A stretch of 64,000 bases of DNA from Terribacillus aidingensis (GTDB lineage Bacteria > Bacillota > Bacilli > Bacillales > Amphibacillaceae). The notes beneath the pieces are model-generated. The model saw only the letters and a program-made list of their open reading frames with translations. It made no database searches and was not told the origin of the DNA. The stretch lies in NCBI RefSeq assembly GCF_040703035.1, contig NZ_CP159996.1:2948001-3012000 (forward strand). Reading direction: 5' to 3'. Below, piece after piece: positions 21,491-32,423 of this stretch; position 1 is the first letter of the stretch; each line of letters starts with the position of its first letter. The position numbers and the translations under genes are program-made.

Positions 21491-22366
21491 TTATACAGTT
21501 GTTGAACCATCAGAGCTTAAGATATTACGGTACATGGAAGGACGGCGGTCACGGAACAGCCCCCATTCCACACGCTGCATAGCCAGCTCGTCCAAATCGA
21601 ACGTAGCAGTAAGGATTTCTTCTTTTGTACGTCCTGCTTCCGCCAGCAAATTCCCCTGCGGACCAGCGATAAACGAAGAACCATAAAACGTGATAGAGGA
21701 ATCCTCATCCGTTTCCACACCAATCCGGTTTGAAGCCAAAACAGGCATCAAATTGGTTGCTGCGTGTCCTCGCATACACATTTGCCAGTGATCCTTCGAG
21801 TCAATGCTTGCATCCTCCGGTTCGGAACCGATTGCTGTAGGATACAGCAGGATTTCCGCTCCTTGAAGCGCCATGCTGCGCGCTGCTTCCGGGAACCACT
21901 GATCCCAGCAAATGCCCACACCTATCTTCCCGAATTTCGTCTCCCACACTTTGAAGCCAGTGTCCCCAGGGCTGAAATAATATTTCTCTTCATAGCCCGG
22001 TCCATCTGGAATATGCGTTTTCCGGTAGATACCAAGAACAGAGCCATCCGCATCGATCATAGCGACTGTATTGTAGTTTGCATTGTTCTTTTTCTCATAG
22101 AAGCTAATTGGAAGTACTACTCCAAGCTCCTTCGCCACTTGTTTGAAATGCTGCACTGCTTTGTTCTGCTCCAGCTCTGTTGCAAACGCGTAGTAAGCAG
22201 GCTTTTCCTTTTGGCAGAAGTATGGTGTTTCAAACAACTCCTGTAGCAGGATGACATTCGCACCTTGAGCTGCCGCTTGGCGGACAAGCTTCTCGGCATT
22301 GGCGATATTCTCTTCAACGACACTGGAACAAGCCATTTGTGTAGCTGCTAAAGTTACCTTTCTCAC
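21491..22366 (-). CDS. aguB: N-carbamoylputrescine amidase
   Basis: A 291-residue nitrilase-superfamily enzyme that turns N-carbamoylputrescine into putrescine, carbon dioxide and ammonia. The Glu-Lys-Cys triad is visible: LLQELFETPYFC (Glu near 43), KTHIPDGPGYEEKYYFSPGD (Lys near 120) and GVGICWDQWFPEAAR (Cys near 157). The PDGPGYEEKYYF stretch is specific to AguB. It lies five bases downstream of aguA in one operon. The two products complete agmatine to putrescine conversion. Confidence 0.94.
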   Translation of the reverse strand: MRKVTLAATQMACSSVVEENIANAEKLVRQAAAQGANVILLQELFETPYFCQKEKPAYYAFATELEQNKAVQHFKQVAKELGVVLPISFYEKKNNANYNTVAMIDADGSVLGIYRKTHIPDGPGYEEKYYFSPGDTGFKVWETKFGKIGVGICWDQWFPEAARSMALQGAEILLYPTAIGSEPEDASIDSKDHWQMCMRGHAATNLMPVLASNRIGVETDEDSSITFYGSSFIAGPQGNLLAEAGRTKEEILTATFDLDELAMQRVEWGLFRDRRPSMYRNILSSDGSTTV

Positions 22367-22371
22367 TTACT

Positions 22372-23403
22372 TCACTCCTTCACTGCAGGCATCTGCTGTG
22401 TAGTACAATGTACATTTCCGCCCTCTTTGATGATAGCTAGTCCATCAATTGTACGGATTCGGCGATCCGGGAACTGCTCCTGCAGCAGCTTGATTGCCCG
22501 TTCATCCGTTCCTGCTGCGGTATTACCGAAAACAGGAAGGATAATGCCTCCATTTACAAAATAGAAATTAATATAGCTCAAAGTCAAGCGCGTGTCATTC
22601 CAGGCAGCCTTAGGCGGCTGTTGGATAGCGATCACTTCAATCTGACGTCCTTTCGCATCTTTCGTCTCATCAAGAATGCGCAGATTCTCTTGAGTGATTT
22701 CATAGTTCTCGTCTTCCGGGTCATCTGTCACCTGCAGCAGCAGTTTACCAGGTGCGGCAAAGCAGGCGATATTATCGACATGTCCATCCGTTTCGTCCCC
22801 AGCAACACCACGCTTCAGCCAAATCACTTTTTCAATACCAAGATACTCTCGAAGATATGCTTCTATATCTTCCTTGGAAAGGTCTGAATTGCGGTTTGGG
22901 TTTAAAAGGCACTCCTCTGTTGTAATTAGTGTCCCTTCCCCGTCCACGTGAATGGATCCGCCTTCTAACACTAATGGAGCATCCAATTGCTTCACACCGA
23001 AGTGATTCAGAACAGCCGGAGCTACTGCATCATCCAGATCCCATGGGAAGTATTTTTCTCCCCATGCATTAAAACGCCAGTTTACACCAGCCAGTTTGCC
23101 AGCTTCGTCCCGGACGAATGTCGGGCCGTTATCTCGAAGCCATGCATCGTTATGAGAAACCTCAAGCAGTGTTACATTTTTATCTTGTCCTACATAAGCA
23201 GCTGCTGCATCGCGATCCTTGGCGTTCACCAATACGGTAATCGGCTCGAATTCCGCAATCGCAAGAATCAGTTCAGCATAACCCTTACATACAGCTTCCC
23301 AATCCTCCGGATAGACCATTGAGTCCTTCACAGGCCAGCTGATCAGCGTACGCTCATGCTTCTCCCATTCAGGAGGCATTGTATATGTCAAATGTTGTTC
23401 CAT
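22372..23403 (-). CDS. aguA: Agmatine deiminase
   Basis: A 343-residue peptidylarginine-deiminase-family enzyme that hydrolyses agmatine to N-carbamoylputrescine and ammonia. Signature blocks: TMPPEWEKHERTLISWP at the N-terminus, NDAWLRDNGPTFV, GGSIHVDGEGTLITTEECLL, DETDGHVDN (His and Asp) and the catalytic cysteine in EGGNVHCTTQQMP at the end. All catalytic residues are present. First gene of aguA-aguB. Because agmatine releases ammonia and putrescine, both nitrogen supply and polyamine synthesis are possible roles; the PspA-aminopropyltransferase cluster 1.5 kb upstream favours the latter. Confidence 0.95.
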   Translation of the reverse strand: MEQHLTYTMPPEWEKHERTLISWPVKDSMVYPEDWEAVCKGYAELILAIAEFEPITVLVNAKDRDAAAAYVGQDKNVTLLEVSHNDAWLRDNGPTFVRDEAGKLAGVNWRFNAWGEKYFPWDLDDAVAPAVLNHFGVKQLDAPLVLEGGSIHVDGEGTLITTEECLLNPNRNSDLSKEDIEAYLREYLGIEKVIWLKRGVAGDETDGHVDNIACFAAPGKLLLQVTDDPEDENYEITQENLRILDETKDAKGRQIEVIAIQQPPKAAWNDTRLTLSYINFYFVNGGIILPVFGNTAAGTDERAIKLLQEQFPDRRIRTIDGLAIIKEGGNVHCTTQQMPAVKE

Positions 23404-24514: not shown

Positions 24515-24958
24515 ATGGATCACATCGACCGCACACTGCTGGAGCTGCTGCAGCATGATGGCCGAATCACAATTAGCGAATTATCCAAGAAGCTAGCACT
24601 GAGCAGGCCGAGTGTTTCAGAGCGGATGGCAAGGCTTGAGGAGCGCGGTGTTATCGAGCATTACACAGCCCGAGTTGCGCATGCGAAGGTTGGATTGGAT
24701 ATCTTGTTGTTCATCCAGGTTAGTGAATTGAAGATCCCTCATTTGGAGTTTGAAAATCTGATTGCAAAGGAAGAAGCTGTACTTGAATGCCACAGGGTGA
24801 CCGGACCGATCAATTATTTGCTGAAGGCAGCAGTCCCTGACATGAATGGCATGCGGGAATTGATCGACCGGCTGATTCCGTATGGCGCATTTAATACTTC
24901 AACTGTACTGACATCTCCAGTAGCTTATAGAGCGTTATTGCCTAGGGAAGATCAATAA
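24515..24958 (+). CDS. Lrp/AsnC-family transcriptional regulator
   Basis: A 147-residue regulator. N-terminal winged helix: HIDRTLLELLQHDGRITISELSKKLALSRPSVSERMARLEERGVI, then the RAM ligand-binding domain (VGLDILLFIQVSEL, LECHRVTGPINYLLKAAVPD). Start at ATG 24515 with AAAGGGAG; a GTG six codons earlier lies in the ribosome site. The last seven bases overlap the convergent aminopropyltransferase gene. The amino-acid effector is unknown; position beside agu and polyamine genes suggests amino-acid or polyamine control, but that is inference. Confidence 0.9.
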   Translation: MDHIDRTLLELLQHDGRITISELSKKLALSRPSVSERMARLEERGVIEHYTARVAHAKVGLDILLFIQVSELKIPHLEFENLIAKEEAVLECHRVTGPINYLLKAAVPDMNGMRELIDRLIPYGAFNTSTVLTSPVAYRALLPREDQ

Positions 24959-26511
24959 TGTTTCCATTCCTGTTGATAGATTTCAATCAAATGAGGATCA
25001 ACCAATGTATTTGGGCGAAGGCTGACTTTCTCTCCATCCGCGCTGGTGATTTCCTTATCCTCATCCTTTCCGAATTCTGTCATTCCAGGAATCATGGAAG
25101 ATTTTAAGTATTCGGTTGGCACGGTAACCTCTAAATTTTTTGGGTCAATCGGATTTCTGCTGCCCATGACAAATCCCCAGTTACCGAAACTTGGCACATC
25201 CAGATGCAGATTCTCTGTTTCAAGCCCCGTTGCGCGGATCGTTTCGTCTATTGTCCAATAAGATTCTGTTGCGAACACCGGGCTAGTGGCTTGGACAATC
25301 ATTGCACCCTCCGGATGCATATGATTTCGCACTAGAGAGTAGAATTCCTCGGTGTATAGCTTGTTCAAGCTCTCGTCATTCGGATCGGGCAAATCAACGA
25401 TGATCACATCATAAATCTGGTCCGTTTCCTTCAGATAAGTGAAGGCATCCTGATTGTGGATGGTGACTTTGTCATTCAGCAGAGAGCGATTGTTTAAATC
25501 TAGCAGTCTCGACTCTGTCTTAGCCATTTCTGTTACAGCAGGGTCGAGGTCGACCAAGGTAATGTCTTGAACGTCGTCATATTTCAAGAGTTCATTTGCT
25601 GCTAATCCGTCCCCTCCGCCAAGTATGAGCACATGATCATGCTGTTTGGCTTGGGACATGACCGGATGCACAAGCGCATCATGGTAGCGGTGCTGATCAA
25701 ATGAACTGAACTGCAATCCGCCATTCAAATACAGCCGCAGGTCATCTCCATCCTGGGTAAGGATGATTTTCTGATATTGGCTTTGCTCCATGTGGATGAT
25801 TGGATCCTCGTAAAGCTTCTGCTCGAACGAAAATGCAGTTTCCTCTCCGAAAAAGACACCAAGAATGAGCAAAATCCCGATGAATATACCGACTGCAGCA
25901 TGCAAGGCAACCCGCTTCACTTCTTCCCGGAATAACCACAGTACGACCAGTGCAACTACTAAATTAACTAGACCGACTAGAAAAGCTGATTTAACGATTC
26001 CGAACTGCGGACGCAGCAAGAAGGCAAAAAGCAGACCGCCGATCAGTCCGCCTGCATAATCACTGAACAGAACACGTGCTGTACTCCGACCTATCGTCTC
26101 GCCGATCTCATTCGCCTTCCTAATCAGAATCGGCAGCTCCACTCCGGTTAACGCACCAACGATAATTGTGACGAAATAGAGATAGAACGCGTCAGTCCCG
26201 TCAGGGGTATATGCTGTGATCCCGAACATCGTAAAGCTAGAAAAGCCACCAATCAAAGCTACGAAAAATTCGATATAAATAAATGCTAGAATGAGTCGCT
26301 TCGTCACACGCTCACTTATGCTGGCACCAATCCCCATACCAGTCAAAAACAAAGAGATGGTGAGTGTATATTGCTTCACACCATCTCCGAGAATATAGGA
26401 ACCTAATGCCCCGAACAAAACTTCAAATATAATACCGCATATGGAAACGATACCTGAAGCCCAATAAATAAATGAGGTTTTATTTGTTACTTTTTGCTGC
26501 ATGTCTTTCAT
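24952..26511 (-). CDS. Membrane-anchored polyamine aminopropyltransferase (spermidine synthase-like)
   Basis: A 519-residue fusion. Residues 10-225 hold about seven membrane helices; residues 235-520 form a spermidine-synthase-type domain: SQYQKIILT, LRLYLNGGLQFSSFDQHRYHDALVHP, the decarboxy-SAM site VLILGGGDGLAANELLKY with the acidic VDLDP strand, and the catalytic DVIIVDLPDPNDESLNKLYTEEFY. The key aspartates are present, so activity is likely; the acceptor could be putrescine, agmatine or something else. Last of five genes in the PspA cluster, 18 bases after DUF350. Soluble SpeE has about 280 residues and no membrane part. Confidence 0.9.
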   Translation of the reverse strand: MKDMQQKVTNKTSFIYWASGIVSICGIIFEVLFGALGSYILGDGVKQYTLTISLFLTGMGIGASISERVTKRLILAFIYIEFFVALIGGFSSFTMFGITAYTPDGTDAFYLYFVTIIVGALTGVELPILIRKANEIGETIGRSTARVLFSDYAGGLIGGLLFAFLLRPQFGIVKSAFLVGLVNLVVALVVLWLFREEVKRVALHAAVGIFIGILLILGVFFGEETAFSFEQKLYEDPIIHMEQSQYQKIILTQDGDDLRLYLNGGLQFSSFDQHRYHDALVHPVMSQAKQHDHVLILGGGDGLAANELLKYDDVQDITLVDLDPAVTEMAKTESRLLDLNNRSLLNDKVTIHNQDAFTYLKETDQIYDVIIVDLPDPNDESLNKLYTEEFYSLVRNHMHPEGAMIVQATSPVFATESYWTIDETIRATGLETENLHLDVPSFGNWGFVMGSRNPIDPKNLEVTVPTEYLKSSMIPGMTEFGKDEDKEITSADGEKVSLRPNTLVDPHLIEIYQQEWKHY

Positions 26512-26529
26512 CTCCGAACTGCTTTTAGC

Positions 26530-26925
26530 TTACGTAATGGACGCACCGATGACGAACCCAAGACCGATTGAAACCGCTAAGGAAATAATTCCGACCGCAA
26601 TATTGTTATCTTTCAGCTTGGATTGAACAGAAAATCGGCGTGTCACACCCTCAAATACGAAGTAGGCAATCATCTGCAGGACAACACCGTATGCGCCCCA
26701 GATGAGTGTTTCCCAAAGTTCACTGCTGTGGTAAATGGAGAATGACAGAACAAGGCAGATTCCGATGATCTTACCGCCGATAGATAAAGCTACAGCTGTA
26801 TTGCCCTTTTCGATTTCCTCCCAGTCCCGGTACTTATGTGTGATCAGCTCAAAGATGATAAGTCCGATGATGACAATCACAACTGCAATGACAAAGTATA
26901 GAAAAGTCGATAAAAATGGATTCAT
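26530..26925 (-). CDS. DUF350 membrane protein
   Basis: A 131-residue protein with four membrane helices in two DUF350 repeats: LYFVIAVVIVIIGLIIFELITHKYRDWEEI and the GNTAVALSIGGKIIGICLVL element, then VLQMIAYFVFEGVTRRFSVQSKLKDNNIAVGIISLA. AAGGAGGCATAG precedes the ATG. It lies between a DUF4247 lipoprotein and the membrane aminopropyltransferase in the PspA cluster. In E. coli the DUF350 protein YjfL sits beside a PspA paralogue (YjfJ), so the association recurs across phyla. Molecular role unknown. Confidence 0.9.
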   Translation of the reverse strand: MNPFLSTFLYFVIAVVIVIIGLIIFELITHKYRDWEEIEKGNTAVALSIGGKIIGICLVLSFSIYHSSELWETLIWGAYGVVLQMIAYFVFEGVTRRFSVQSKLKDNNIAVGIISLAVSIGLGFVIGASIT

Positions 26926-26949
26926 GATTCTATGCCTCCTTAATTTTGA

Positions 26950-27600
26950 TTATTTACCTGCATCCGGTCCGCCGCCACGATAGTTGGACGTACCGCGTCT
27001 CGTACTGCTGCCCGAACCACCGCTATCATCATTCGACCGATATGTTGACGTGTAGCCGCCATAACAGCCGCCATTCTGACAAGTATCCATTCTGTTCTGG
27101 CTCCAGTTACTGCCAAAGAGGGAATTCAACAGGGCAAATGTAAAGAATGTATTCAAATAGTTCGGTGAGTAGTTATTTCGTACAAATGTACGATCTGCTA
27201 CTTCCATCAATGTGACATCGCTATCTTCGTCACTCGGTTTCAAGGTAATGAAAACATCGTCATAAATCATCATCAGCTGTCCGTTTTTCTTGTCGCTGAT
27301 TTCATCCGGACCTTCGGCTTGCTTAAATAACTCTTCCAATTCATCTACTGTATAAAGGCGTGTCGCATACACATTTGCACTACCGCGTCTTTCACCGGAA
27401 ACAACATCAAGCAAATAAAAGTTATTGTCGATCAACGTTTCGATCGATTCACCTACACTATTCTCAAATTTAGACGTGACTGTCTCCTTGTCCGGTTCAT
27501 CAGGTATTTCGCTGACAGAAGCAGTTTGCTCATCGGAATTACCGCACCCGGCCAGAATAACAACAAATACAAGACAAAGACCCGCCAGCCAGTATTTCAT
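26950..27600 (-). CDS. DUF4247 lipoprotein
   Basis: A 216-residue predicted lipoprotein; signal KYWLAGLCLVFVVILAGC, lipobox Cys at 19. After an acidic linker the DUF4247 core includes IETLIDNNFYLLDVVSG, ATRLYTVDELEELF, MMIYDDVFITL and FVRNNYSPNYLNTFFTFALLNSLFG. The C-terminus from about residue 165 is Cys-containing (CQNGGCYGGY) and Gly/Ser/Arg-rich, low complexity. It would face the outside of the membrane opposite cytosolic PspA, so it could be the surface component of the system. Function not known. Confidence 0.85.
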   Translation of the reverse strand: MKYWLAGLCLVFVVILAGCGNSDEQTASVSEIPDEPDKETVTSKFENSVGESIETLIDNNFYLLDVVSGERRGSANVYATRLYTVDELEELFKQAEGPDEISDKKNGQLMMIYDDVFITLKPSDEDSDVTLMEVADRTFVRNNYSPNYLNTFFTFALLNSLFGSNWSQNRMDTCQNGGCYGGYTSTYRSNDDSGGSGSSTRRGTSNYRGGGPDAGK

Positions 27601-27651
27601 GAAGGCTCCTCCCTTCTTTCGATTTCCTTATGTAAAGCAGACAGACGAAAA

Positions 27652-27670
27652 CCCTTGCTTCACGCAAGGG
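27652..27670 (-). terminator. Weak intercistronic hairpin between pspA and DUF4247
   Basis: CCCTTGC/GCAAGGG stem with TTCAC loop, then TTTTCG on the minus strand. It may act as a partial terminator lowering expression of the three membrane/lipoprotein genes relative to DUF4178 and PspA. Confidence 0.6.
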
Positions 27671-27695
27671 TCAGCCTGCCGATGGCTATGGCTGC

Positions 27696-28364
27696 TTATT
27701 CTTTACCCATTTTCTTTTTCAGGGCAGCTAACTCATCGTCTACACCATTCTTCTCAAGAGCAGCGAATTCATCATCCAGGGATCGGTTAGATCGGGACAT
27801 ATCCTCGCTCGTCTCAGCTTCTGCTTCATACTGCAATACTTTTTCTTCCATGCGCTCGAAACCGCCGCGGGACTCGTCGCTGCCAATATTGGACATTGTA
27901 CGGTTCATCTTTGTACGTGTTTTGGCAGATTCTGCACGTGCCTTGAGGGAATCTTTTTTCAGTTTCATTTCCCCGTATTCCTTTTTCATCTCATCCAGCT
28001 TCTGACGGATGGACGCTACATCGCTTGATGCACGCTCCCATGATGCGTAAAGTGAATCAGCTGTCTGCTGATGCGTCTGCTTATCTTCCAAAGCGCGGCG
28101 AGCCAAATCATCATTGCCAGCTTCAATCGCTGTCTCCGCTTGCTGCTGACGTTTATCAGCCATTGCCTTGGCATCATCGTATTTGCGTTTCAGCATCTTT
28201 TCGTTTGCAATTTGCTTCGCTACCGCTGTTTCTGCTTCACGGATATCTGCTTCCATGTCACGCATGAACTGATCCAGCATTTTCACCGGATCTTCTGCTT
28301 TATCAAGCATTGCATTCAATTCTGAGTTTACGACTGTTTTTACACGGTTAAAAAATTTAAACAT
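27696..28364 (-). CDS. pspA: PspA/IM30 (ESCRT-III-like) membrane stress protein
   Basis: A 222-residue, nearly all-helical coiled-coil protein. The N-terminus MFKFFNRVKTVVNSELNAML is the membrane-binding amphipathic helix; AEDPVKMLDQFMRDMEADIREAETAVAKQIANEK begins the PspA hairpin; the tail EFAALEKNGVDDELAALKKKMG is a short C-terminal helix. PspA/LiaH proteins assemble on the inner face of damaged membranes. Here it is gene two of a five-gene unit under a sigma-W-type promoter, 23 bases after DUF4178. B. subtilis pspA is also a sigma-W gene. Confidence 0.93.
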   Translation of the reverse strand: MFKFFNRVKTVVNSELNAMLDKAEDPVKMLDQFMRDMEADIREAETAVAKQIANEKMLKRKYDDAKAMADKRQQQAETAIEAGNDDLARRALEDKQTHQQTADSLYASWERASSDVASIRQKLDEMKKEYGEMKLKKDSLKARAESAKTRTKMNRTMSNIGSDESRGGFERMEEKVLQYEAEAETSEDMSRSNRSLDDEFAALEKNGVDDELAALKKKMGKE

Positions 28365-28387
28365 ACAATTCGCTCCCTTTAATTAAT

Positions 28388-28900
28388 TTAATTTGAACCC
28401 GCAATGATTTTAATTTCACGCGGTTTGATTTCATAACCATAGCTGACTTCAATTTCGCTTCCCCAGCCTTCGAGACCAAGGAAATGCTCTTCATCTTCAT
28501 CATAATAATCGGCAAAATGGACGATTGAGCCATTCACATTACGACTTCTTCCTTCACCGACGACTCGAGCTTCACCTTGCTCATCAAGGAAGTAAGTCCG
28601 GCCTTCGTGCGTCAGCTGCTTCGGATATGGTTTTGATACCGAAAGCGGAATTTTTTTATATATACCCAGCTCCAGTTCATCATCCATCTCAGCAGAGAGC
28701 CAAAGGATCGTATCCCCTTCCACCAGCTGGTAGTCGAACCATTCATAGCTCCCTTGACGGGAAGTGATTTTTCCGACTACTTCATAGGTGACCAAGTCAT
28801 ATTCGACAATGTCGCCCACTTGGATGGACAGTGCATTGCGTTCCCTTACAGCAGGACGCTCAGGGGACTTTTTCTTGAATATACGGGAAAGAATACCCAA
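28388..28900 (-). CDS. DUF4178 protein
   Basis: A 170-residue soluble beta-rich protein. Basic N-terminus, then DUF4178 signature: LSIQVGDIVEYDLVTYEVVGKITSRQGSYEWFDYQL, DTILWLSAEMDDELELGIYKKI and YYDEDEEHFLGLEGWGSEIEVSYGYEI. First gene of the PspA cluster, following the sigma-W promoter by about 30 bases. DUF4178 domains repeatedly occur beside PspA and aminopropyltransferase genes as I recall; biochemical function is unknown. Strongly acidic. Confidence 0.88.
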   Translation of the reverse strand: MGILSRIFKKKSPERPAVRERNALSIQVGDIVEYDLVTYEVVGKITSRQGSYEWFDYQLVEGDTILWLSAEMDDELELGIYKKIPLSVSKPYPKQLTHEGRTYFLDEQGEARVVGEGRSRNVNGSIVHFADYYDEDEEHFLGLEGWGSEIEVSYGYEIKPREIKIIAGSN

Positions 28901-28934
28901 AACCTTTCACCATCCTCTTATCTTGTATCTTATA

Positions 28935-28960
28935 TACGGGCAGGGATACAGAAGGTTTCA
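28935..28960 (-). promoter_or_regulatory. Sigma-W promoter of the PspA cluster
   Basis: On the minus strand TGAAAC (28960-28955), exactly 16 bases, CGTA (28938-28935, extended CGTATA). This is the full sigma-W consensus of B. subtilis with ideal spacing. It lies 35 bases before the DUF4178 start codon. Confidence 0.85.
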
Positions 28961-30049: not shown

Positions 30050-30083
30050 AAAACAGGCATTCCGATGATGGAATGCCTGTTTT
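30050..30083. terminator. Bidirectional terminator between uvsE and a subtilase gene
   Basis: A 13-bp perfect stem AAAACAGGCATTC/GAATGCCTGTTTT with an eight-base loop between convergent genes. Confidence 0.92.
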
Positions 30084-31110
30084 CATTTCACTTTGATTGC
30101 TTTAATTCGATTTTGTAAATTTTTCTTTTCAGTAGAGGATTTCAGCTTATCAACTGCCGACTGAGCAGATTGCTTAGCCTTTTTCGTTTTGTCTTTCTCC
30201 GCTTTCTTCACTTTCGATTTAGCGTCAATCAGTTTCTTTGCATCCGCCGCTTTTACCTTCACTTTATCAAGACGCTTCTGAAGATTATCCTTATCCTTGC
30301 CGGATTGCAGCTCCTTGAGTGCATTCTGTGCCTTCTGAATATTAAAATCGCTAATGTTCTTCTCAGCTGCCTTCACCAGATCATTTGCTGACTTGATTTG
30401 GGCCTGCTTCACCTTATCAAGACGTTTCTGCAAATCTGTTTTGTCTTTGCCATTAGTCAGTTTTTTCACAGATTGCTGGGCATCATCAACATTCTTTTTA
30501 GTCTTGCTTTTCTCCGCCTTACTGGTTTTGTCTTTTGCTTCCTGTACTAGCAGAGCTTGCTTTACCTTATCTAAGCGCTTTTGCAGATTATTCTTTTCGG
30601 TTTTATCTGTCACTTTATTGATGGCAAATTGTGCTGCATCAATGTCTGTTTTCTTCTTGCTCTTTTCCGCTTTGGCGGCTTTGTCCTTCGCTTCCTGCAG
30701 CGTTAGAGCTTGTTTCACTTTATCCAATCGCTTCTGAAGGTTTTTCTTTTCAGTGCTATCCGTTACTTTATTGATGGCAGATTGTGCTGCATCAATATCT
30801 GTTTTCTTCTTGCTCTTTTCCGCTTTGGCGGCTTTGTCCTTCGCTTCCTGCAGCGTTAGAGCTTGTTTCACTTTATCCAATCGCTTCTGAAGGTTTTTCT
30901 TTTCAGTGCTATCTGTAACTTTATTGATGGCGGATTGCGCTGCATCAATATCTGCTTTACTTTTGCTCTTCTCCGCTTTGGTAACCTTATCCTTTGTTTC
31001 CTGTAGCGTTAGCGCTTGTTTTACTTTATCAAGCCGCTTTTGCAAATTCTGCTTGTCCTTATTATTCGATAAGGCCGCTACGAGTTTCTGTGCTGTATCA
31101 TAGTTTCCCT
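30083..31110 (-). repeat. 153-bp tandem repeats encoding the subtilase tail
   Basis: Seven units, period 153 bp (51 residues) in the inner copies; the CGTTAGA element recurs at 30701 and 30854. Units two and three are nearly identical in DNA, so recent slippage or unequal recombination is likely. The motif (DIDAAQ, INKVTDSTEKKNLQKRLDKVK) resembles three-helix repeats of Cry1Ac domain D-VI type. Confidence 0.85.
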
Positions 31111-32314
31111 GATTGCTAGCTTTCTCAGCTAGCTCAACGGCCTCCAAGGCTGGCTGATACCCTTTATCTTTCTCAGACTGATATTGGACTAGCCCGTAAC
31201 CGAATAGACTGTCCCGGCCTTTTTGCCCAAGGTCCTTGCTATATCGCTGCAAACGTGTGCGCAGCTGATCATTCGCTTCATTCGGGTATTGCTGTTTCAA
31301 CAGCGCAAGCATCGCTGTCACATGCGGTGTGGCTTGTGAAGTTCCGCTCATCATCGCATAATAGGTACCAAGATAGGTGCTTGTAATATCTGCTCCTGGC
31401 GCAGATAGTTCTACCTTACTTCCTACTGAAGAGAAGGAAGCGATGTTATTTTGCGATTCAGAAGCAGAAACAGCAATCACTTTGTCGAAGGCTGCCGGAT
31501 AATCCAATGGTCGGCCTGCCCCTTCATTCCCGCTTGCTGCAACCAGCAAGATGCCTTTCTGGTATGCTTTATCCACAGCATCCTGTAATGCCATGCTCTT
31601 ATAAGCAGTTCCCATGCTCATATTGATAATGTTCATATCATTGGATATTGCCCAATCGATACCTTCCAGCAGATCCGAGAGATTTCCTCGGCCGGCATTA
31701 TCCAGCGCTTTGACTGCATATAACTGTGCATCCGGTGCAACACCATAGGTTCCATATCGATTATGCTTTGCTCCAATGATACCGGCCACATGCGTCCCGT
31801 GCCCTTCATCATCTTTATAAGAGGACGTATAGCTTACAGCGGAGTATCCTCCTGCTATTTTTAAATCCTCATGTGGATATATTCCACTATCTATTACGGC
31901 AATTTTGACACCTTTGCCAGTTAAGCCTTCGTTCCAGGCAAGGGACGCCTGGATTGGCTTTAAGTTCCATTGATCTAAAATTGGAGATGCAGCTTCTTTT
32001 ACAGCTCGAATGCTTGTAATTCCGTTATCGGAAACTGAAATCTTAACGTCCGGCTCGACATACTTAATGTCCGGATCTTCCTTCAATTCCTCGATCGTTC
32101 CGGTATCAGCGGTGATCGCAGCCACCGGCAAATTATCGTATTCCTTTTCGACTGCTGCATCACTTCCCTGAACTGCTTCTTCTCCCTTCTTATTTTCATA
32201 CACGATAATCATCTGCTTTTCTTCCTCAGCATATGTTTTAACAGCCGGAAACAGGAAAGTCAGACTCAGCAACAACGAAACAAGAAATAGGCTCTTTATC
32301 GAAACCTTCATCAT
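30083..32314 (-). CDS. Secreted subtilisin-like serine protease with C-terminal tandem repeats
   Basis: A 743-residue precursor. Signal peptide to about residue 29 (TYA/EEE), I9-type propeptide to about 95 (MIIVYENKKGEEA...IKYVEPD), S8 catalytic domain about 115-380 with Asp142 (AVIDSGI), His172 (GHGTHVAG), oxyanion Asn263 (ASGNEG) and Ser326 (SGTSQATPH). Residues 400-743 are seven repeats of about 51 residues, each with an LQKRLDKVK core, predicted helical and very basic. No sortase signal. The domain after propeptide is closest to its neighbour at 32424, so the pair arose by duplication. Start at 32314 with AGAGGA; a further ATG follows directly. Confidence 0.9.
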   Translation of the reverse strand: MMKVSIKSLFLVSLLLSLTFLFPAVKTYAEEEKQMIIVYENKKGEEAVQGSDAAVEKEYDNLPVAAITADTGTIEELKEDPDIKYVEPDVKISVSDNGITSIRAVKEAASPILDQWNLKPIQASLAWNEGLTGKGVKIAVIDSGIYPHEDLKIAGGYSAVSYTSSYKDDEGHGTHVAGIIGAKHNRYGTYGVAPDAQLYAVKALDNAGRGNLSDLLEGIDWAISNDMNIINMSMGTAYKSMALQDAVDKAYQKGILLVAASGNEGAGRPLDYPAAFDKVIAVSASESQNNIASFSSVGSKVELSAPGADITSTYLGTYYAMMSGTSQATPHVTAMLALLKQQYPNEANDQLRTRLQRYSKDLGQKGRDSLFGYGLVQYQSEKDKGYQPALEAVELAEKASNQGNYDTAQKLVAALSNNKDKQNLQKRLDKVKQALTLQETKDKVTKAEKSKSKADIDAAQSAINKVTDSTEKKNLQKRLDKVKQALTLQEAKDKAAKAEKSKKKTDIDAAQSAINKVTDSTEKKNLQKRLDKVKQALTLQEAKDKAAKAEKSKKKTDIDAAQFAINKVTDKTEKNNLQKRLDKVKQALLVQEAKDKTSKAEKSKTKKNVDDAQQSVKKLTNGKDKTDLQKRLDKVKQAQIKSANDLVKAAEKNISDFNIQKAQNALKELQSGKDKDNLQKRLDKVKVKAADAKKLIDAKSKVKKAEKDKTKKAKQSAQSAVDKLKSSTEKKNLQNRIKAIKVK

Positions 32315-32423
32315 TCGCGTAATTTTCCTCTCAATTAAGTGAATTTCATGATACTTATATCGGTCCAAACCAGGAAAACATAATAGCTAATACAAGAGTT
32401 TCAAAAAAGATTGATAGCTTCCA

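Follow-up and report, generated by a model that had tools for sequence, protein, structure and literature searches.

PspA has been grouped with a spermine synthase fused to seven transmembrane helices (7TM), DUF350, a lipoprotein and DUF4178 (Ravi 2024, PMC11237479), and that paper suggests polyamine sensing or the aminopropylation of other substrates and reports DUF4247 in other variants, Actinobacteria included. In Bacillus subtilis, the pspA-ydjG-ydjH-ydjI operon depends on SigW (PMC3498285). The Escherichia coli genes yjfIJKLMC code for a PspA paralogue, DUF350 (YjfL), DUF1190 (YjfM) and YjfC, and both YjfC and YgiC, the latter encoded beside YgiB, carry the RefSeq name peptide-spermidine ligase. 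This naming is said to go back to Pederick and colleagues in 2023. Li and colleagues reportedly linked, in 2019, fusions of a major facilitator superfamily (MFS) part and spermidine synthase to SpeD and DUF350 without identifying the acceptor, and such a fusion is said not to complement a spermidine synthase deletion. The system considered here is a five-gene operon of Terribacillus aidingensis, located in a 64,000-nucleotide stretch of the genome (the window), whose last gene codes for a membrane-bound aminopropyltransferase, here called mSpeE.

The reading put forward, with a rough probability of 0.37 and by analogy with described enzymes, is that mSpeE would aminopropylate the C-terminal lysine of a membrane-anchored partner protein instead of free putrescine, and that it would make no free spermidine. 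The reading draws on a conserved operon and promoter, an enzyme domain with invariant catalytic residues that is predicted to lie outside the cytoplasm, a constant association with SpeD and a lysine-ended tail that recurs on the partner proteins encoded beside mSpeE.

Gene order and promoter of the five-gene block

Transcription runs on the minus strand from 28900 to 24952, in the order DUF4178, PspA, DUF4247, DUF350 and mSpeE, on a host genome that is a single 3.58 Mb contig. An open reading frame (ORF) check returns the five same-strand ORFs and the gaps of 23, 95, 24 and 18 bases that the original prediction, a reading of the letters of the window, had listed; only the order given in its title was slightly off, because DUF4178 precedes PspA in transcription. 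The features are as follows (aa, amino acids).

28935..28960, minus strand: sigma-W-type promoter TGAAAC-N16-CGTA, an exact match conserved across loci
28388..28900, minus strand: DUF4178 protein, 170 aa, TTG start (PF13785, 119 bits; alignment A2)
27696..28364, minus strand: PspA/IM30, 222 aa (PF04012, 166 bits; the strongest PspA match in the genome)
27650..27672, minus strand: hairpin with a 9-bp stem and a short T-run, inside the 95-base pspA-DUF4247 gap (27601-27695)
26950..27600, minus strand: DUF4247 lipoprotein, 216 aa (PF14042, 30.6 bits against a cut-off of 27)
27544..27555, minus strand: lipobox LAGC (Cys19) of the DUF4247 lipoprotein (sequence and alignment)
26953..26979, minus strand: C-terminal tail RGGGPDAGK of the DUF4247 lipoprotein, the proposed substrate (tail conservation in Bacillota)
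26530..26925, minus strand: DUF350 membrane protein, 131 aa (PF03994, 132 bits)
24952..26511, minus strand: mSpeE, membrane-bound aminopropyltransferase, 519 aa (PF01564, Spermine_synth, 122 bits; NF002956)

The NF002956 match of mSpeE scores 596 bits (cut-off 472), the NCBIfam name of the family is polyamine aminopropyltransferase, and the protein is 89% identical to one of Terribacillus halophilus, its nearest named match, and 97% identical to two further database copies. The block holds no extra gene for a CesT/Tir-type chaperone, and none of the five products has such a Pfam match. A weaker second PspA-family match (71 bits) lies at G000:C1:2856359-2856976 (L200), with a stop codon within the matched stretch.

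In a family sample of 146 genomes from 46 genera, mSpeE is present in 89 genomes and 25 genera, and 40 of these 89 genomes, covering the 25 genera, were examined over 10 to 18 kb fetched per locus. All five genes stand in the same order at 39 of the 40 loci, the exception (L076) carrying DUF4247, DUF350 and mSpeE alone. This synteny upholds the single conserved gene block of the original prediction and rules out the lack of a conserved neighbourhood, the outcome that the prediction itself had named as contrary to it. PF14042 matches occur in 59/146 family genomes, all 59 of which carry mSpeE. Bacillota outside the family seldom carry mSpeE: a phylum sample of 299 genomes yields 15 matches at E<=1e-30, own genome counted, five of them to the enzyme domain only. 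In nine further full Bacillota loci mSpeE is 40 to 61% identical, all five genes are ordered alike in four (L082, L087, L088, L089), and DUF4178-PspA lies upstream of mSpeE in eight, L083 being without both; moreover, DUF350 is unrecognised in L084 and replaced by two half-length copies downstream in L086.

Half-length DUF350 copies (about 65 aa) are found in L085, L086 and L090, in tandem in L086, which suggests that the usual DUF350 protein is an internal duplication. In L084 and L086 the gene for one more protein, some 180 aa long, separates pspA from the gene of the lysine-tailed protein. On an Alteromonas plasmid, the operon at L095:5908-12566 runs mSpeE, speD, a hypothetical protein, a toxic anion resistance protein, DUF4178, a 510-aa protein with an RGPSSGK end and DUF350; PspA is not annotated in it.

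The sigma-W consensus is TGAAAC-N16/17-CGTA. The site upstream of DUF4178 ends 34 bases before the TTG start and is the sole exact TGAAAC-N16-CGTA match in the window. Genome-wide, exact matches with a spacing of 16 or 17 number 30, against 11 for a reversed control pattern, so that a single exact site says little by itself. Across genomes, the exact promoter stands upstream of DUF4178 in 37 of the 39 syntenic family loci, whereas 200 rounds of dinucleotide shuffling yield 0.005 on average and never more than 1, and the conservation is therefore not due to chance; the two remaining loci (L043, L045) belong to same-genus genomes, each one base off in the -35 element. The exact promoter also occurs in L082, from another family of the same order, and in 0/8 more distant Bacillota loci, which makes sigma-W control a trait of the order, as sampled. 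The genome encodes one SigW above the family cut-off (311 bits), and a further sigma-factor match is split in two pieces at G000:C1:503893-504336 (L205, L208). No sigma-W site precedes speD in the three Bacillaceae loci that have speD in the fetched stretch (L046, L056, L057). Regulation by sigma-W, like the architecture, is well supported by these comparisons of sequence, and the sigma-W control originally predicted is borne out by the promoter count together with the SigW gene; the five-gene block is probably switched on in cell-envelope stress.

The pspA-DUF4247 gap contains a hairpin, followed by at least four T within nine bases, in 32/41 loci, against a mean of 3.5 after simple shuffling. 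Its sequence changes from genus to genus, and many loci have weak T-runs. The hairpin may act as an attenuator or mark a processing site or RNA end, allowing an excess of DUF4178-PspA, and the distal genes DUF4247-DUF350-mSpeE may consequently be expressed below DUF4178-pspA.

The enzyme, its probable donor and the lysine-ended partner

The mSpeE chain divides into three parts.

25921..26511, minus strand: residues 1-197, six-helix MFS half (VIA-align match)
25846..25911, minus strand: residues 201-222, seventh transmembrane (TM) helix (model helix 201-227; hydropathy peak 2.9)
24955..25818, minus strand: residues 232-519, aminopropyltransferase domain, predicted outside

The AlphaFold model has a predicted local distance difference test (pLDDT) score of 90, and residues 1-197 match half of an MFS protein by VIA-align; with six helices plus one, mSpeE falls short of the twelve helices per chain of the MFS. 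Lysine and arginine are more numerous on the N-terminal-side loops in 43/43 sequences, and the enzyme domain is predicted to lie outside the cytoplasm. This domain has the SpeE fold and the donor-binding GGGDG and VD(L/I)D motifs. In alignments A1 (21 of 50 mSpeE sequences) and A5 (43 sequences: the one of the window, 10 of 120 protein hits and 32 of 80 loci), residues D301, D373, D376, Y276 and Q407 are invariant (21/21 and 43/43), so that the intact catalytic residues noted in the original prediction extend to all 43 sequences. D373, D376 and Y276 are presumably the active-site aspartate, its acidic partner residue and the tyrosine; at the equivalent positions, canonical SpeE has D in 21/21, E in 15 or D in 6, and Y in 21/21. 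Conversely, Gln267, Pro375, Thr409, Trp419 and Phe442 are invariant in mSpeE and replaced by other residues in canonical enzymes. The closest folds are a Thermus triamine/agmatine aminopropyltransferase and, next, thermospermine synthase. In the protein of the window, the enzyme domain carries a strong excess of acidic residues, with 51 D+E and 22 K+R.

SpeD is encoded in 89/89 mSpeE family genomes and in 15/57 genomes without mSpeE. A strong canonical SpeE match accompanies mSpeE in 62 of the 89; in four more the second PF01564 match is not strong, and in 23 no PF01564 match other than mSpeE exists (E<=0.001), so that SpeD has no other SpeE-family customer there. The Terribacillus genome itself has a separate canonical SpeE. 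Among 80 named loci from other phyla, 45 encode, at most about 8.5 kb away from mSpeE, a homologue of SpeD (phmmer E<=1e-4), and on the Alteromonas plasmid speD directly adjoins it. The co-occurrence supports decarboxylated S-adenosylmethionine as the probable donor.

The partner protein is conserved above all at its end. In alignment A3 (23 of 47 DUF4247 sequences) the mean column identity is only 41%, yet 23/23 proteins end in RGGG-x3-GK, and the lipobox Cys19 is likewise invariant (23/23). Across 49 Bacillota loci, the DUF4247 proteins recognised by profile end in GK in 46/46 cases and in RGGGxxxGK in 45/46. The tail uses all six codons for Arg and all four for Gly, and this free variation points to selection on the protein sequence rather than on the DNA. 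In L084, L085 and L090 the body of the partner differs and the tails, identified by eye, are still VRGGGFGFGK, VRGGGIGGLGGK and TRGGSTGFGK; the L084 partner has a membrane helix in place of the lipobox. In other phyla the tail is carried by unrelated-looking frames: a 60-aa single-helix protein in Acidobacteriota (example end NPGSYRSVYGGYHHYTGGK), a helix and tail closing a 500-aa protein in Burkholderiales (end GGSYGGYSSGGGHK) and 47-aa proteins in Leptospiraceae (end GHSSYHK), with further ends FYHK in Bacteroidota, GGGPESGK in Ensifer and RGPSSGK in Alteromonas.

With ORFs called mechanically and scored for a G/S/Y/H-rich tail ending in (G/H)K, a sample drawn from outside the Actinobacteria contains a tail-scoring same-strand ORF in 62/80 named loci, against 3 on the opposite strand. 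The last residue of the tail-like ORFs is K in 65 and any other residue in at most 6; two of the 65 look spurious, and their loci each hold a proper one too. Within 3 kb upstream of mSpeE, 64/1025 ORFs qualify, against 10/5726 background ORFs. Counting looser, distant and divergent cases, added by hand (L102, L108, L109, L146, L153, L154, L166, L173), the lysine tail is present in 70/80 named loci. The loci without it are L124, L125, L128, L131, L133, L144, L147, L158, L167 and L168, and in L128, L158 and L168 the sequence ends less than 230 bases upstream of mSpeE.

Proposed mechanism and rival explanations

From these data we infer a scheme for the acceptor, the donor route and the physiological role. 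Envelope damage would free SigW and lead to transcription of the operon. PspA and DUF4178 would act at the cytosolic face, where PspA would coat the inner membrane face and protect the membrane, while the DUF4247 lipoprotein, DUF350 and mSpeE would form the membrane module. SpeD-made decarboxylated S-adenosylmethionine would feed mSpeE, and a dimer could bring two MFS halves together in a full MFS-like bundle, opening a donor route to the outer active site. There, mSpeE would add an aminopropyl group to the exposed lysine of the lipoprotein tail and so turn it into N-epsilon-(3-aminopropyl)lysine, which can be seen as a simple relative of deoxyhypusine; the modified tail would be a tethered polycationic tip with more charge and reach at the outer membrane face under stress. 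Lysine is a plausible acceptor, since its side chain is a four-carbon primary amine (butylamine) like putrescine. The main reason for proposing the tail as the substrate is a correspondence: the free carboxylate that an amide ligase requires is offered by the terminal Gly of its partner, and the primary amine required by an aminopropyltransferase is offered by the terminal Lys of its own. More tentative, and to be regarded as doubtful, is the general proposal of a widespread, membrane-embedded and outward-facing aminopropyltransferase whose MFS half would gate the donor, decarboxylated S-adenosylmethionine, and which would transfer the aminopropyl group to the last lysine of short, anchored proteins with a tail. 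If it is true, the modification spans Bacillota, Acidobacteriota, Gemmatimonadota, Pseudomonadota, Leptospiraceae, Bacteroidota and others, and many database entries would need new names.

Several points weigh against tail aminopropylation. The tail score was defined only after tails had been viewed; 7/77 uncut named loci have no lysine tail and keep the mSpeE catalytic motifs; and PF14042 is unmatched in 30/89 mSpeE genomes, the inspected loci of this kind carrying a diverged relative by BLAST (e.g. L047, L049, L051, L052). The orientation is affected as well. In other phyla (n=61), the charge around the tail-protein helix is higher on the N-terminal side in 15 cases, higher on the C-terminal side in 27 and tied in 19. 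Foldseek gives no significant match for the N-terminal half of mSpeE, so that the MFS assignment rests on VIA-align, and DSSP merges TM5 and TM6 in the model, so that the count of seven helices rests on the MFS match and hydropathy. Cysteine depletion (0 in 14,047 residues of 49 Bacillota sequences) is rejected as proof of an outside domain because it does not discriminate, with 49 cysteines in 23,200 residues of the 80 named mSpeE and 16 in 5,839 residues of 21 canonical SpeE. An outside active site also requires an outside donor, for which we know of no precedent. The E. coli ligase is soluble and its partner looks exported, and the parallel therefore leaves the site of modification unexplained. 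Finally, the tail lysine could serve for docking or for anchorage in the cell wall.

On this last point builds the view that mSpeE and the lysine tail cooperate without the tail being the substrate, its lysine serving docking, gating or wall anchoring and the acceptor being a lipid, a teichoic acid or a wall amine. A terminal lysine on a flexible anchored tail also resembles an L,D-transpeptidase anchor, the C-terminal lysine of Braun lipoprotein being a wall anchor of this type, and the acidic enzyme domain (51 D+E, 22 K+R) could hold a cationic tail without modifying it. An anchor would, nonetheless, need no linkage to an aminopropyltransferase, and this explanation appears rather unlikely. 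Phosphatidylethanolamine, tried as a general acceptor in an MprF-like scheme, is rejected: Psd is found in 19/146 family genomes and not in this genome, and 79/89 mSpeE genomes are without a Psd match, leaving 10/89 with one. The original prediction had favoured a machine that modifies or delivers a polyamine at the membrane, and its conserved operon stands. In the rival reading on these lines, mSpeE would be an additional enzyme, bound to the membrane, that makes spermidine or a longer polyamine, which would stabilise the membrane or be exported under stress. The intact enzyme residues are in keeping with this view, as are the closest folds (triamine/agmatine aminopropyltransferase and thermospermine synthase), the NCBIfam family name and the 23/89 genomes in which mSpeE is the only SpeE-family match beside SpeD. 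The free-polyamine acceptor is the part that needs revision: a strong canonical SpeE in 62/89 mSpeE genomes means that spermidine is already covered in most of them, the genome at hand has a separate canonical SpeE, the enzyme domain is predicted outside, and the recurrent lysine tail of the partner is left unexplained. The failure of such a fusion to complement a spermidine synthase deletion, reportedly described by Li in 2019, points the same way, and free-polyamine synthesis is accordingly held to be unlikely.

The direct fusion of the MFS half to the SpeE domain could also mean that this domain, with only vestigial chemistry left, senses the level of donor or polyamine and thereby regulates the MFS half or DUF350; the invariance of D301, D373, D376, Y276 and Q407 (21/21 and 43/43) is unlike a decaying enzyme and makes such a sensor highly improbable. 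Scarcely more credible is a division into adjacent but separate units, DUF4178-pspA on one side and DUF4247-DUF350-mSpeE past the hairpin on the other, as the hairpin in 32/41 loci and the presence of the last three genes only in L076 and L083 might suggest, since all five genes keep one order in 39/40 family loci. Aminopropylation of the tail lysine is retained as the working reading, and it offers a defined candidate substrate, a short conserved lysine-ended peptide, with an expected mass shift.

Two other parts of the window were considered. The N-carbamoylputrescine amidase and agmatine deiminase genes at 21491-23403 (agmatine to putrescine) might have supplied a link to polyamines, but this is rejected for poor conservation: within the fetched flanks they lie near the operon in 3/4 same-genus loci and 0/36 others. 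At 30083-32368, a subtilisin-like protease, recognised by eye, is followed by several near-identical Lys/Ala-rich repeats.

Comparison with described systems

The association of PspA with a spermine-synthase fusion has already been published (Ravi 2024, PMC11237479), and the words lysine and glycine are absent from the main text of that paper. Its second CesT/Tir-PspA group has in common with the present operon PspA, the 7TM-fused spermine synthase domain, DUF350, a lipoprotein and DUF4178; here, in contrast, the lipoprotein is of the DUF4247 type, the promoter is of the sigma-W type and the CesT/Tir chaperone gene is missing; this last difference makes the operon a variant of that group instead of one of its members. 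A computational adhesin screen (PMC3726780) names DUF4247 in Rv2599, with a predicted signal peptide and one helix. As far as the literature was searched, the conserved sigma-W control, the predicted outside location, the counts of SpeD co-occurrence in Bacillaceae and the lysine tail are new: a narrow search, covering few subscription journals, found nothing on aminopropyl-lysine with a C-terminal lysine or a hypusine-like bacterial modification, and among the papers found for sigma-W, PspA and spermidine synthase together none mentions spermidine synthase. The fusion enzyme is common, with at least 579 confirmed genome stretches, and the operon connects polyamine-type chemistry with both a known stress regulator and the membrane protection provided by PspA, offering a reason for the joint occurrence of DUF350, DUF4247 and DUF4178.

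The B. subtilis pspA-ydjGHI operon is likewise driven by sigma-W, although the partners here are DUF4178, DUF4247, DUF350 and mSpeE in place of ydjG, ydjH and ydjI, and to our knowledge it includes no polyamine enzyme or DUF350. Canonical SpeE matches the C-terminal domain of mSpeE in fold and catalytic residues; mSpeE differs in the MFS half in front of it and in the predicted outside position of the domain. The fusions attributed to Li are reportedly alike in fusion enzyme, SpeD linkage and DUF350, and what is added here is a candidate acceptor. If tail aminopropylation is true, the sigma-W stress response would lead directly to it in Bacillaceae.

The analogy with E. coli yjf drawn in the original prediction holds for the PspA paralogue, DUF350 and YjfC, and extends to a membrane-anchored partner with a Gly-rich C-terminal tail. 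YjfC and YgiC are of the glutathionylspermidine-synthase kind, GspS-like ATP-grasp ligases, whereas mSpeE belongs to PF01564; the E. coli partners end in ...RGHWGG and ...RSMGG, and DUF1190 proteins in GG in 7/8 cases and GS in 1/8, whereas the partners beside mSpeE end in lysine. In deoxyhypusine formation on eIF5A, a polyamine-derived amine is attached to the epsilon-amine of a lysine; enzyme fold and donor differ from those of mSpeE, and the product proposed here is aminopropyl-lysine. If true, bacteria would have in this modification their own counterpart of hypusine, related as a sister to the C-terminal peptide spermidinylation of E. coli.

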